A DNA stretch of 64,000 nucleotides from NCBI RefSeq assembly GCF_003730135.1, contig NZ_RJVO01000003.1:124001-188000 (forward strand), given 5' to 3'. Below, one piece after another: positions 35,887 through 39,138 of this stretch. The position numbers and the translations under genes were made by a program. This stretch comes from Stagnimonas aquatica. Its GTDB lineage: Bacteria; Pseudomonadota; Gammaproteobacteria; Nevskiales; Nevskiaceae. The stretch's first letter is position 1. Every line of letters begins with the position of its first letter. The notes under the pieces were generated by a model. The model was not told the DNA's origin. It was given only the letters and a program-made list of their open reading frames with translations, and did no database searches.

Positions 35887-35945
35887 GCGCGTCTGGTCTG
35901 CGTTTGGCGCCGGCGCGACTTCCACTCGAATCAGAGAACGAATCC

Positions 35946-38051
35946 ATGACCTTTCCAGTCCAGCCGGTCCGCAAGTCCTTTCAGTACGGTCAGCACGAAG
36001 TAGTCCTTGAAACCGGCCACATGGCCCGCCAGGCCACCGCCGCCGTGGTGGTGAGCATGGGCGAGACCGTGGTGCTGGTCTCGGTGGTCGCCAAGAAGGA
36101 GCCGAAGGAAGGCCAGGATTTCTTCCCGCTCACCGTTGACTACATGGAGCGCTTCTACGCTGGCGGCCGCATCCCTGGCGGCTTCTTCAAGCGTGAAGGC
36201 CGTCCCACCGAGAACGAGACCCTCACCTCGCGCCTGATCGACCGCCCGCTGCGCCCGCTGTTCCCGGATGGCTTCTACAACGAGATCCAGGTGGTCGCCA
36301 CCGTCATCTCGCTGAACCCGGAAGTGGCCGGTGACATTCCGGCGCTGATCGGCGCTTCCGCCGCCATGAGCCTGGCCGGCGTGCCGTTCGAAGGCCCCAT
36401 CGGTGCCGCCCGCGTTGGCTACGCCAATGGCCAGTACCTGCTCAACCCCACCACCAAGCAGCTCGAAACCTCGCAGCTCGACCTGGTGGTCGCCGGCACC
36501 AAGGACGCAGTGCTGATGGTGGAATCCGAAGCCCAGCAGCTCTCGGAAGACGTGATGCTCGGCGCCGTGCTGTTCGGTCACGAGCAGATGCAGGCCGCGA
36601 TCAATGCCATCAACGAGCTGACTGCCGTCGCCGGCAAGCCGAAGTGGGATTGGACCGCTCCGGCTGAATCCGCCGAGCTGACCGCCGCCATCAATGCCGT
36701 CGAAGCCCTGGTCAGCGATGCCTACAGCATCACCGACAAAAAGGCGCGTCAGGACGCCGTGGCCGCCGTCCGCAAGCAGCTCACCGCCGAACTGGCCGGC
36801 GGCGATGCCCCGAAGTTCAGCGAGGGCAAGATCAAGGATGCCTTCCACGCCCTGGAAGCCCGCGTGGTGCGTAACCGCATCCTTGATGGCGCGCCGCGTA
36901 TCGACGGCCGCGACCGCGTTACCGTGCGTCCGCTGACCATGGGCACCGGCCTGCTGCCGCGTGTGCACGGCTCGGCCCTGTTCACCCGTGGCGAAACCCA
37001 GGTGATGGCCGCCATCACCCTGGGCACCGGCAAGAGCTCGCAGTTGATCGACGCTGCCTCCGGCGAGACCAACGACAGCTTCCTGTTCAACTACAACTTC
37101 CCTCCGTACTGCGTCGGTGAGACTGGTCGTCTGAACGCGCCCAAGCGTCGCGAGATCGGCCACGGCCGTCTGGCCAAGCGCGGCGTCATGGCGGTGATGC
37201 CGGATCTGGTCAAGGAATTCCCCTACGTGGTGCGCGTGGTCACCGAGGTGATGGAGTCCAACGGCTCTTCCTCGATGGCTTCGGTGTGCAGCGCCAGCCT
37301 GGCGTTGATGGACGCTGGCGTGCCGCTGAAGGCGCCAGTGGCCGGCGTGGCCATGGGTCTGATCAAGGAGGCCGAGAAGTTTGCGGTGCTCACCGACATC
37401 CTCGGCGACGAAGATCACCTCGGCGACATGGACTTCAAGGTGGCCGGTTCGGTCAACGGCATCACCGCGCTGCAGATGGACATCAAGATCACCGGCATCA
37501 CCGGCGAGATCATGAAGCTGGCGCTGGCCCAGGCCAAGGACGCGCGTTTGCACATCCTCGGCGCCATGAATCAGGCGCTGTCCGGTACCCGCGAGACCAT
37601 GAGCCCCTGGGCGCCGCGCATCACCACCATCAAGATCCACCCGGACAAGATCCGCGAAGTGATTGGCAAGGGTGGTGTCACCATCCGTTCGATCACCGAG
37701 GCCACTGGCACCCAGATCGACATCGACGACGACGGCACCATCAAGATCGCCGCCGTCACTGGCGAAGCGGCCGAAGCCGCCATCGCCCGCATCACCATGC
37801 TCACCCGCGAAGTGATGCCGGGTGATGTCTACGAGGGTCGTGTGGCCCGCCTGATGGATTTCGGTGCGTTCGTGACCATCCTGCCTGGCCGCGACGGTCT
37901 GGTGCACATCAGCCAACTCTCGGAGCAGCGCGTCGAGAAGGTGGAAGAGGTGGTCAAGGAAGGCGACATCGTGCGCGTCAAGGTGCTGGAAGTGGGGCGT
38001 GACGGCAAGATTCGTTTGTCCATGAAGGCTTCCGACGTCGGTCTCGCCTGA
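35946..38051 (+). CDS. pnp: Polyribonucleotide nucleotidyltransferase
   Basis: PNPase of 701 aa, a phosphorolytic 3'-5' exonuclease of the RNA degradosome. Two RNase PH cores are visible ([15 protein letters not shown] and [21 protein letters not shown]), with [16 protein letters not shown] and [19 protein letters not shown] in the second core, then the KH ([16 protein letters not shown]) and S1 ([18 protein letters not shown]) domains. ATG 35946 gives the family start; an earlier in-frame ATG would add 14 residues. Confidence 0.98.
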
Positions 38052-38069
38052 TCGTCGGCCGCAACAAGG

Positions 38070-38106
38070 ACGGCCGCTCCATGTGGAGCGGCCGTTTTGT
38101 TTTTTG
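38070..38106 (+). terminator. Terminator after pnp
   Basis: Perfect 11-bp stem ACGGCCGCTCC (38070-38080) with 38085-38095, ATGT loop, then TTTGTTTTTT. Confidence 0.92.
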
Positions 38107-38234: not shown

Positions 38235-38364
38235 AAAAAAAGAACCCCCCTCGTTGCCGAAGGGGGTAAGGTGCTAGAAAGGCGCATGGCCTTTCTGGAG
38301 GAGACCAGATAAAAGCCCGGAAACGAGACCCGCTTCCGGGCTTTTTTCGTTTCCTACTTTTGTT
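38235..38364 (-). ncRNA. Candidate small RNA, about 130 nt, with CUCCUCC segment
   Basis: Predicted from sequence only. A consensus minus-strand promoter is followed by three hairpins. The first has a 12-bp stem (38345-38334 with 38322-38311). The middle region can form either a 5-bp stem with loop UCUCCU (38309-38294) or an 8-bp stem (38296-38289 with 38283-38276) that leaves CUCCUCC unpaired. The last is a 9-10-bp stem capped by a GCAA tetraloop and ending in seven Us (38241-38235), an excellent intrinsic terminator. The C-rich segment is complementary to ribosome-binding sites, as in known anti-Shine-Dalgarno sRNAs. No reading frame of note. The first hairpin, with four Us, might give a shorter product. 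Confidence 0.65.
38311..38347 (+). terminator. Bidirectional hairpin, terminator in the plus direction
   Basis: AAAAGCCCGGAA (38311-38322) pairs with TTCCGGGCTTTT (38334-38345) and on the plus strand ends in six Ts. On the minus strand the same hairpin is the first stem of the candidate sRNA. Confidence 0.65.
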
Positions 38365-38373
38365 GCAGTGCAG
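38361..38373. promoter_or_regulatory. PhaR-like operator at the sRNA start
   Basis: TGTTGCAGTGCAG overlaps the predicted transcription start and abuts the -10 of the sRNA promoter. Ten of its first 11 bases recur before phaR (39084-39094). TGCA-type half-sites fit known PhaR targets; binding is inferred. Confidence 0.45.
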
Positions 38374-38400
38374 TATAGACCTCTGTTATTGCAATGTCAA
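38372..38400 (-). promoter_or_regulatory. Strong sigma-70 promoter of the candidate sRNA
   Basis: On the minus strand TTGACA (38400-38395), 17-bp spacer, TATACT (38377-38372). The spacer includes TTGCAA, and an A/T tract (about 38413-38422) sits upstream like an UP element. This is the best consensus promoter in the window. Confidence 0.8.
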
Positions 38401-38563: not shown

Positions 38564-39067
38564 TCAGACGCCAGGGCCGTCCTCGCCTTTTTCTCGCAAG
38601 GGGTTGATTGCCTTGGCGCGTTCCAGGCTCTTCAGGAACTCCTTGCGCACTGCCCGCCAGACCGGAACCTGCTTCTCCGCCAGTTCCTTGAGCACCTGCA
38701 CTGGCTGCTGCGCCTGCCCGAGCAGGTCGCGCAGCTGGTCGGTGAAGTGGTGTTGCTGCTCGGAGAACAGGCGCAGCGACAGCTCCAGGTAACGGCTGAT
38801 GCTGGACTGCATCGGGTCGCCGTAATAACGGACGATGAACATCAGCAGATCGGCGCTGAAGATCGGGTTGCCACCTTCCTCCTGCTCGGCGATCACCTGC
38901 AGCAGGATCGAGCGGGTGATGTCCTCGTGACTGCGCTTGTCCTCGACCCGGAAGCTGATGTTCTGCAGAACCAGTTGCCGTACCTCCTCCAGCGTGATGT
39001 AGCGGCTGACGTGGGTGTCGTACAGCCGGCGGTTGGGGTACTTCTTGATGATGCGGACATCGTTCAT
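38564..39067 (-). CDS. phaR: Polyhydroxyalkanoate synthesis repressor PhaR
   Basis: PhaR of 167 aa. The N-terminal DNA-binding domain, with the hallmark IIKKYPNRRLYDTHVSRYIT, is at about residues 5-25 and continues to about 65. The following PHB-accumulation domain has LLMFIVRYYGDPMQSSISRYLE, and a helical, basic tail follows. In other species PhaR senses PHA granules and represses phasin genes and itself. No PHA synthase or phasin gene is in the window. ATG 39067 was chosen because the family starts just before the KKYPNR motif; an in-frame ATG eight codons upstream overlaps an operator-like box. Divergent in orientation from pnp, and transcribed towards the sRNA. Confidence 0.93.
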   Translation of the reverse strand: MNDVRIIKKYPNRRLYDTHVSRYITLEEVRQLVLQNISFRVEDKRSHEDITRSILLQVIAEQEEGGNPIFSADLLMFIVRYYGDPMQSSISRYLELSLRLFSEQQHHFTDQLRDLLGQAQQPVQVLKELAEKQVPVWRAVRKEFLKSLERAKAINPLREKGEDGPGV

Positions 39068-39083
39068 GGGCGCGGGATAAAAA

Positions 39084-39094
39084 TGTTGCACTGC
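39084..39094. promoter_or_regulatory. PhaR-like box upstream of phaR
   Basis: TGTTGCACTGC lies 17-27 bases before the phaR start and differs at one position from the box at the sRNA promoter. PhaR is known to autoregulate in other bacteria; that it does so here is inferred. Confidence 0.45.
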
Positions 39095-39138
39095 GGAAAG
39101 AATGCCAGAAGCCGCCCTTTCCCGCTATTGAGGCGCTT

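Follow-up and report, generated by a model that had tools for sequence, protein, structure and literature searches.

On the minus strand at positions 38235-38364, the Stagnimonas aquatica DNA is predicted to encode a small RNA of about 130 nt, with the start site inferred from sequence (positions are those of the window, i.e., the whole 64,000-nt stretch that was analysed). Judged by comparison with related genomes, this sRNA feature is real and conserved. It is probably a PhaR-regulated, trans-acting anti-Shine-Dalgarno (anti-SD) sRNA linking translation to PHB (carbon storage) status: the PhaR motif at the promoter, combined with an anti-SD copy in the RNA, suggests that carbon storage status probably switches off the translation of selected genes. 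An earlier note on this DNA had proposed a PhaR-linked trans-acting RNA with an anti-ribosome-binding-site segment. Comparative sequence analysis upholds that proposal, with phaR synteny in 48/55 genomes, a PhaR box in 69/78 copies, a near-invariant UCUCCUCC segment and a covarying hairpin.

The phaR gene (PHB-responsive regulator; 38564-39067, minus strand; listed ORF 38564-39091, likely start 39067) lies upstream of the sRNA on the same strand, and its product matched Pfam families PF07879 (96.6 bits) and PF05233 (41.9 bits). On the other side lies the convergent pnp gene (35904-38051, plus strand, longest listed ORF), followed directly by a terminator-like hairpin (38067-38098, plus strand) that is separate from the sRNA. 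No ORF of at least 60 aa was found on the minus strand within 38235-38364, in agreement with the claimed lack of a reading frame. The promoter, the folds, the C-rich segment and the GCAA-capped terminator with seven Us were likewise all found where the earlier note had placed them. A hairpin loop of this copy contains an AUG, as would suit a 5' untranslated region or a small-ORF mRNA instead of an sRNA. We find that reading scarcely credible: the loop is variable in relatives, and the terminator follows directly.

The consensus minus-strand promoter that had been claimed, TTGACA-17-TATACT (38400-38372), was confirmed with 11/12 matches and reads as a strong sigma-70 promoter. Its -35 box TTGACA (38395-38400, minus strand) was assigned from the promoter scan and from relatives. 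The final T of its -10 box TATACT (38372-38377, minus strand) is also the first base of a putative PhaR box. A scan of 521 nt on both strands gave 2 promoter-like sites vs. a shuffle mean of 0.5. The PhaR box TGCACTGCAACA (38361-38372, minus strand; core TGCACTGCA at 38364-38372), assigned by motif match, overlaps the -10 box and the start site. The sequence TATACTGCACTGCAACA is thus a -10 fused with a PhaR box, and the earlier note does not remark on this match to the PhaR consensus. In the available sections of the Sinorhizobium meliloti study, the PhaR motif is given as WNWD2NYGCRNYGCRNH2WNW, an efficiently bound site upstream of ppdK as ATTTGGTGCACTGCAACAAAA, and a bound site of the sRNA MmgR is listed 13 nt from its start (PMC12542648). 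For R. eutropha the consensus is given as YTKNTGCRNYGCANMAR (PMC12849132, available sections). The 21-mer at 38358-38378 departs from the S. meliloti motif at 1 position, and our site differs from the R. eutropha consensus at 2. By sequence motif, the promoter therefore carries a palindromic box matching the published ones, as expected of a PhaR regulon member, and shares with MmgR a PhaR box at the promoter. A relaxed match, CGCAGTGCA, is also present in the phaR leader (39087-39095, minus strand), which may point to autoregulation.

The box recurs across the copies found in relatives. The pattern TGCRNYGCA was present within 110 nt upstream of the module in 69/78 copies. In a 67-copy set (at most 5 mismatches to the core), 58 copies carried it upstream, whereas 200 Markov resamplings gave 1.34 copies on average and never more than 5; these resamplings take the copies as independent and ignore genome kinship. 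With up to 3 mismatches to the R. eutropha consensus allowed, 58/67 copies matched. Among TGCNNNGCA sites overlapping a -10, the centre was R-N-Y in 56/56, as PhaR motifs require, and it was ACT or ACC in 46/56. The remaining 9/78 copies, Hydrocarboniphaga copies among them, had no box within 110 nt; five of the nine lie beside phaR. The sRNA could also be a conserved anti-SD RNA whose promoter is constitutive or otherwise controlled, with TGCACTGCAACA serving as a discriminator instead of a PhaR operator. The near-consensus promoter is strong enough that it could fire unaided, and the box-less copies would fit. We nevertheless consider this unlikely in view of the R-N-Y rule at the centres, the adjoining phaR gene, the ppdK site with an identical right half that is bound by PhaR in S. 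meliloti (PMC12542648, available sections), and the recurrence of the box on phasin promoters.

Four places in the S. aquatica genome contain TGCANTGCARCA; one of them, with tandem boxes TATGATGCGCTGCAACAAATGCTGCATTGCAACA, is upstream of a phasin-like gene. This gene scored 18.1 against Phasin_2, below the cut-off of 24.9, which all of the three relatives scanned exceed. PhaR boxes were found at all 30 phasin loci examined (our genome plus 29 relatives; 54 genomes matched), and at 21/30 the box is fused to the phasin -10 as TATGATGC. The phasin loci therefore give independent support for the identity of the box as a PhaR box. Only 11/48 loci show a strict box ahead of phaR itself, and one of the 11 is misplaced. 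Elsewhere in the genome, an acyl carrier protein gene (PF00550) and an ammonium transporter gene (PF00909) have PhaR-box-like matches upstream of them, at G000:C4:291668-291682 (L099) and C4:168020 (L098).

For the 130-nt stretch, the predicted fold energy is -61.8 kcal/mol (z = -6.12), and none of 200 shuffles was equally good. The predicted order is a 5' hairpin, the hairpin AGAAAGGC/GCCUUUCU and the GCAA-capped terminator. The 5' hairpin AAAAGCCCGGAAGCG..CGUUUCCGGGCUUUU (38311-38345, minus strand) is highly variable in sequence among relatives. The conserved 3' module (38237-38305, minus strand; 75.5 bits with covariance model R1) contains the anti-SD segment UCUCCUCC (38297-38304, minus strand; nearly invariant), which is followed by the AGA of the next hairpin. 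The hairpin AGAAAGGC-loop-GCCUUUCU (38276-38296, minus strand) and the intrinsic terminator (38235-38267, minus strand; 10-bp stem 38267-38244, GCAA loop, U tract 38241-38235) complete it. As for Hfq, the U-rich terminator tail is the one trait of the sRNA consistent with binding.

The 5' hairpin also reads as a terminator on the plus strand, where a T run follows it (GCCCGGAA..TTCCGGGCTTTTTT, 38308-38348) although pnp has a terminator-like hairpin already. Together with the place between convergent genes, this T run would fit a region of terminators for pnp and phaR that has no RNA function. We regard that as very improbable: pnp is followed by a terminator-like hairpin of its own (38067-38098), the promoter and a near-invariant non-hairpin segment are conserved, and 17/78 copies lie near neither phaR nor pnp ("near" meaning no more than 1.5 kb away for phaR and 2.5 kb for pnp).

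The segment UCUCCUCC is a copy of the ribosome's (16S) anti-SD sequence. In the S. aquatica copy its mean unpaired probability was 0.45 at full length and 0.94 in the isolated 3' module; among 64 copies the medians were 0.83 and 0.95, respectively. It exceeded 0.5 in 57/64 full-length copies and in 64/64 isolated 3' modules. In predicted folds, the 64 copies thus present an exposed SD-complementary segment, as in the anti-SD functional class. The earlier claim of a C-rich segment switching between an exposed and a looped state did not hold up as a conserved feature, since UCUCCUCC is partly held in just 7/64 full-length copies. A hairpin with a CU-rich loop (CUUCUUCCCUCCCCUU) and a terminator also follow an ORF end at L001:1493-1565 in the same genome, possibly a second C-rich-loop RNA.

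Mimicry of the 16S anti-SD could also mean that the RNA acts mainly on the ribosome, titrates a protein (e.g., Hfq) or serves as a general growth brake that is not mRNA-specific. Overexpressed ncS27 slows the growth of B. cenocepacia (PMC5688073, available sections), and toxicity in E. coli is reported for RF02278 RNAs (PMC4603805), which would agree with a brake. However, Bordetella pertussis S17 represses one specific target through complementary sites and its overexpression is not similarly toxic, according to the available sections of PMC11722255. Conservation also extends to bases flanking UCUCCUCC, the AGA and the linker among them, which speaks against pure ribosome mimicry or titration. 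We judge these readings quite unlikely and prefer mRNA-specific action.

A DNA search with a 186-nt query matched 56/58 genomes of the family at E ≤ 0.01, covering 12/12 genera. The exact core pattern was found in 35 stretches in named genomes (our own genome possibly left out), labelled Solimonas, Nevskia, Sinimarinibacterium, Hydrocarboniphaga, Stagnimonas, Polycyclovorans, Panacagrimonas, Abyssibacter and Stenotrophobium, or plainly as Nevskiaceae, Nevskiales, Sinobacteraceae or Gammaproteobacteria MAGs. The sRNA lies between phaR (upstream, same strand) and convergent pnp in those 48 of the 55 genomes with fetched loci. Another four have pnp near and no phaR within 1.5 kb, and three (G013, G040, G045) have neither gene near the fetched copy. 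Model R1 found 78 copies on 69 loci of the 55 genomes, some of them in tandem at the phaR-pnp site (e.g., L101, L102, L111, L113, L115, L139). Copy numbers are lower bounds because only part of the DNA-search matches was fetched; G027, one of the 56 matching genomes, has no fetched locus. The 78 matches do not count as independent evidence, since R1 was built from alignment A1 and the loci are mostly the source of A1. In the S. aquatica genome R1 found one copy (75.5 bits; next 20 bits), and among 369 genomes of the class it matched 11, four of them in our own order (own genome included).

In A1 (66 aligned 3' modules; one copy with no clear terminator was dropped), no variation was seen in CUCCUCCAG or in much of the hairpin. 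The hairpin AGAAAGGC/GCCUUUCU is paired in 494/494 cells, and two pairs covary by A-U to G-C double changes. Five of its eight pairs never vary and therefore carry no covariation information. Relatives retain the promoter and the 3' module, and many copies have an unrelated hairpin in place of the 5' hairpin. Consensus folding of A2 (24 of 64 full-length copies, selected for resemblance in their 5' hairpin) yielded no common hairpin at the 5' end of these 24 copies, because the 5' part diverges and the copies fold their own hairpins. Conservation in relatives, proposed earlier as a check, is thus borne out for the C-rich segment, the second hairpin and the terminator, and the 5' hairpin persists merely as some hairpin.

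We examined possible targets by pattern searches before start codons. The S. aquatica genome has 52 GGAGGAGA-ATG matches (51 places) vs. 0 for the reversed pattern and 2 sites for the control pattern AAGGAGGT-ATG; given the latter ratio, GGAGGAGA may be merely the genome's Shine-Dalgarno habit. The preference itself (52 vs. 2 before ATG) is possibly unusual. Of 30 GGAGGAGA-ATG sites fetched, 29 open frames of at least 60 aa, and some are probably internal (e.g., the SurE one). Ten of the 29 frames encode two acyl-CoA dehydrogenases, two AMP-binding enzymes, two DUF1302 proteins, one DUF1329 protein, two TonB receptor plugs and one lipase-like hydrolase; the other 19 belong to other families or none (e.g., GGDEF, CBS, MAPEG, pilin). 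Several lipid-uptake or beta-oxidation genes are thus among the predicted targets. Across the family, TTCTGGAGGAGA was found ahead of an ATG 18 times, in 11/58 genomes. Five of the 18 open only frames of < 25 aa, and four of these five overlap sRNA copies on the other strand. For an acyl-CoA dehydrogenase, a strong predicted target and the one candidate followed across relatives (site also in L223), complementarity was kept within the genus only. By analogy with MmgR, phasin would be the obvious target to expect. Its duplex reached -9.0 kcal/mol and 37/42 window genes paired as strongly or more strongly (median -11.3), so phasin is not favoured. The phaR leader was not a preferred duplex partner either.

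The position of the box over the -10 and start site, together with precedent, leads us to infer that free PhaR represses and that PHB sequestration induces. Free PhaR would block the sRNA promoter; once newly formed PHB granules sequester PhaR, the sRNA would be expressed along with phasin. The 3' module would perhaps be released by processing, by analogy with Bordetella S17 only. It may then pair, with the help of Hfq, to GGAGGAGA-type Shine-Dalgarno sites and lower translation, most plausibly that of uptake and catabolic genes for external carbon. A phaR-linked sRNA that is nearly universal in the family offers a case independent of MmgR, and it suggests that translation responds to PHB status. 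It could also provide a practical handle for PHA production strains.

Related RNAs were found beyond the family copy. Several genomes of one genus (g6) and G037 carry a second type of RNA, GUCUCCUCCAGAUCCC..GGGAUCU followed by a terminator, at L047:1501-1562, L049:1213-1275, L050, L051 (two in tandem), L054, L057 and L059; L058 repeats the L051 copies. It resembles RF02278 at 30-36 bits, below the cut-off. Of its eight distinct copies, six are preceded within 110 nt by a strict PhaR box and one by a relaxed box; the last has none. Outside the family, L175, L176 and L180 have the module in the vicinity of phaR or pnp, a PhaR box following the -10; in L173 and L182 it lies near pnp with no evident box, and in L172, L174, L177 and L181 its context is different. 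L172 (1501-1600 and 1628 onward, two in tandem), L174 and L177, all from further gammaproteobacteria, carry related modules GUCUCCUCCUGAAAGGACC.. with no evident PhaR box. In another gammaproteobacterial family (L178:1501-1568 and L179, from G195 and G311), the 3' module is just downstream of a small gene and is possibly a 3'UTR-derived sRNA; in L178 (G195), phaR lies further upstream of both. The small gene had been considered as a phasin, and it matched no Pfam phasin and no Pfam family. Plasmid and viral-contig loci gave lookalikes only; of the 57 loci, 14 were scanned and none of these passed the RF02278 cut-off. Several viral contigs (L287, L308, L276, L306, L286, L270, L299 and others) carry TGTCTCCTCC with a hairpin and terminator, possibly virus-borne anti-SD RNAs; none of 12 viral-contig modules tested was over the RF02278 cut-off.

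A wider reading is that PhaR-controlled anti-SD sRNAs serve Proteobacteria in general as a second branch of PHB signalling, RF02278 RNAs in the PhaR regulon included: once carbon is stored, a 16S-mimic RNA would shut down the catabolism of external carbon. It draws on the two boxed Nevskiaceae RNA types, on the other gammaproteobacterial modules near phaR, and on the RF02278 glucose rise and shared motif. In the available sections of PMC5688073, a common upstream motif is described for three of the four RF02278 RNAs of B. cenocepacia, and glucose medium raises ncS03, ncS05 and ncS27 4- to 8-fold. We put this extension forward tentatively and think it doubtful as a general rule, slightly more so because the G195 gene next to the module gave no phasin match in Pfam; it would offer a testable explanation for the glucose-medium rise of the Burkholderia double-hairpin RNAs.

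Rfam at the gathering threshold matched four tRNAs only in the window and nothing at the sRNA place, in line with the earlier note, which had recognised no named family in it. RF02278 scored 19.6 bits in the window, 25.7 in L018 and 31.5 in the best copy (G053) against a cut-off of 50, and none of 85 genomes of the order had a match over it. RF00519 (MmgR) scored 16.7 bits vs. its cut-off of 41. In all, 25 weak Rfam matches in the window (RefA9, PyrR, His leader, RF02278, anti-hemB, suhB and others) were far below cut-offs, ncS54 reached 27.6 bits in a relative vs. 43, and the own-genome RF02278 matches L001 (30.8 bits) and L002 (24.6 bits) are different C-rich or terminator sequences. In the open-licence literature we found no published report of a PhaR-linked sRNA in the Nevskiaceae group.

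In architecture, the sRNA is closest to the RF02278 double-hairpin RNAs (B. cenocepacia ncS03, ncS05, ncS27 and ncS62). Both have a 5' UGUCUCCUCC segment, a hairpin and a terminator, our own segment GGUCUCCUCC matching at 9/10 positions, as well as several copies per genome and a CU-rich segment complementary to ribosome binding sites. Our sRNA differs in the stem itself, an extra 5' hairpin, the conserved phaR-side place and tandem copies. In its available sections, the literature on RF02278 RNAs does not mention PhaR control; it does report processing of ncS27 to a short form (PMC5688073). B. pertussis S17 is a 67-nt RNase E product with a conserved CU-rich 5' end that represses via RBS-proximal sites (PMC11722255, available sections). 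As in S17/S17S, a longer primary transcript would yield a short, RBS-complementary 3' form, and S17 is Hfq-dependent. S17, likened here by description, differs in being Bvg-linked and lying between a glycosyltransferase gene and coq7.

In control, the nearest counterpart is MmgR (alpha-r8) of S. meliloti, which is described as repressed by PhaR (AniA) and PHB-linked, with a PhaR box near its start and an anti-SD motif (PMC12542648, PMC8401924, PMC7143759; available sections). Of the PHB/PHA-linked sRNAs MmgR, ArrF, CrcY/CrcZ and RsmY/RsmZ, the sections available state PhaR control for MmgR only; those of PMC7143759 give no direct mRNA target of MmgR known in 2020. MmgR belongs to another lineage, has another structure and limits phasin proteins, whereas our sRNA has no special phasin match. 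The phasin promoters of R. eutropha and S. meliloti have the same palindromic box at or near the -10 or start site; the controlled gene here, unlike those, is an RNA, as with mmgR. Although it falls below the RF02278 and RF00519 scores, the sRNA would thus act like the double-hairpin anti-SD RNAs and be controlled like MmgR.
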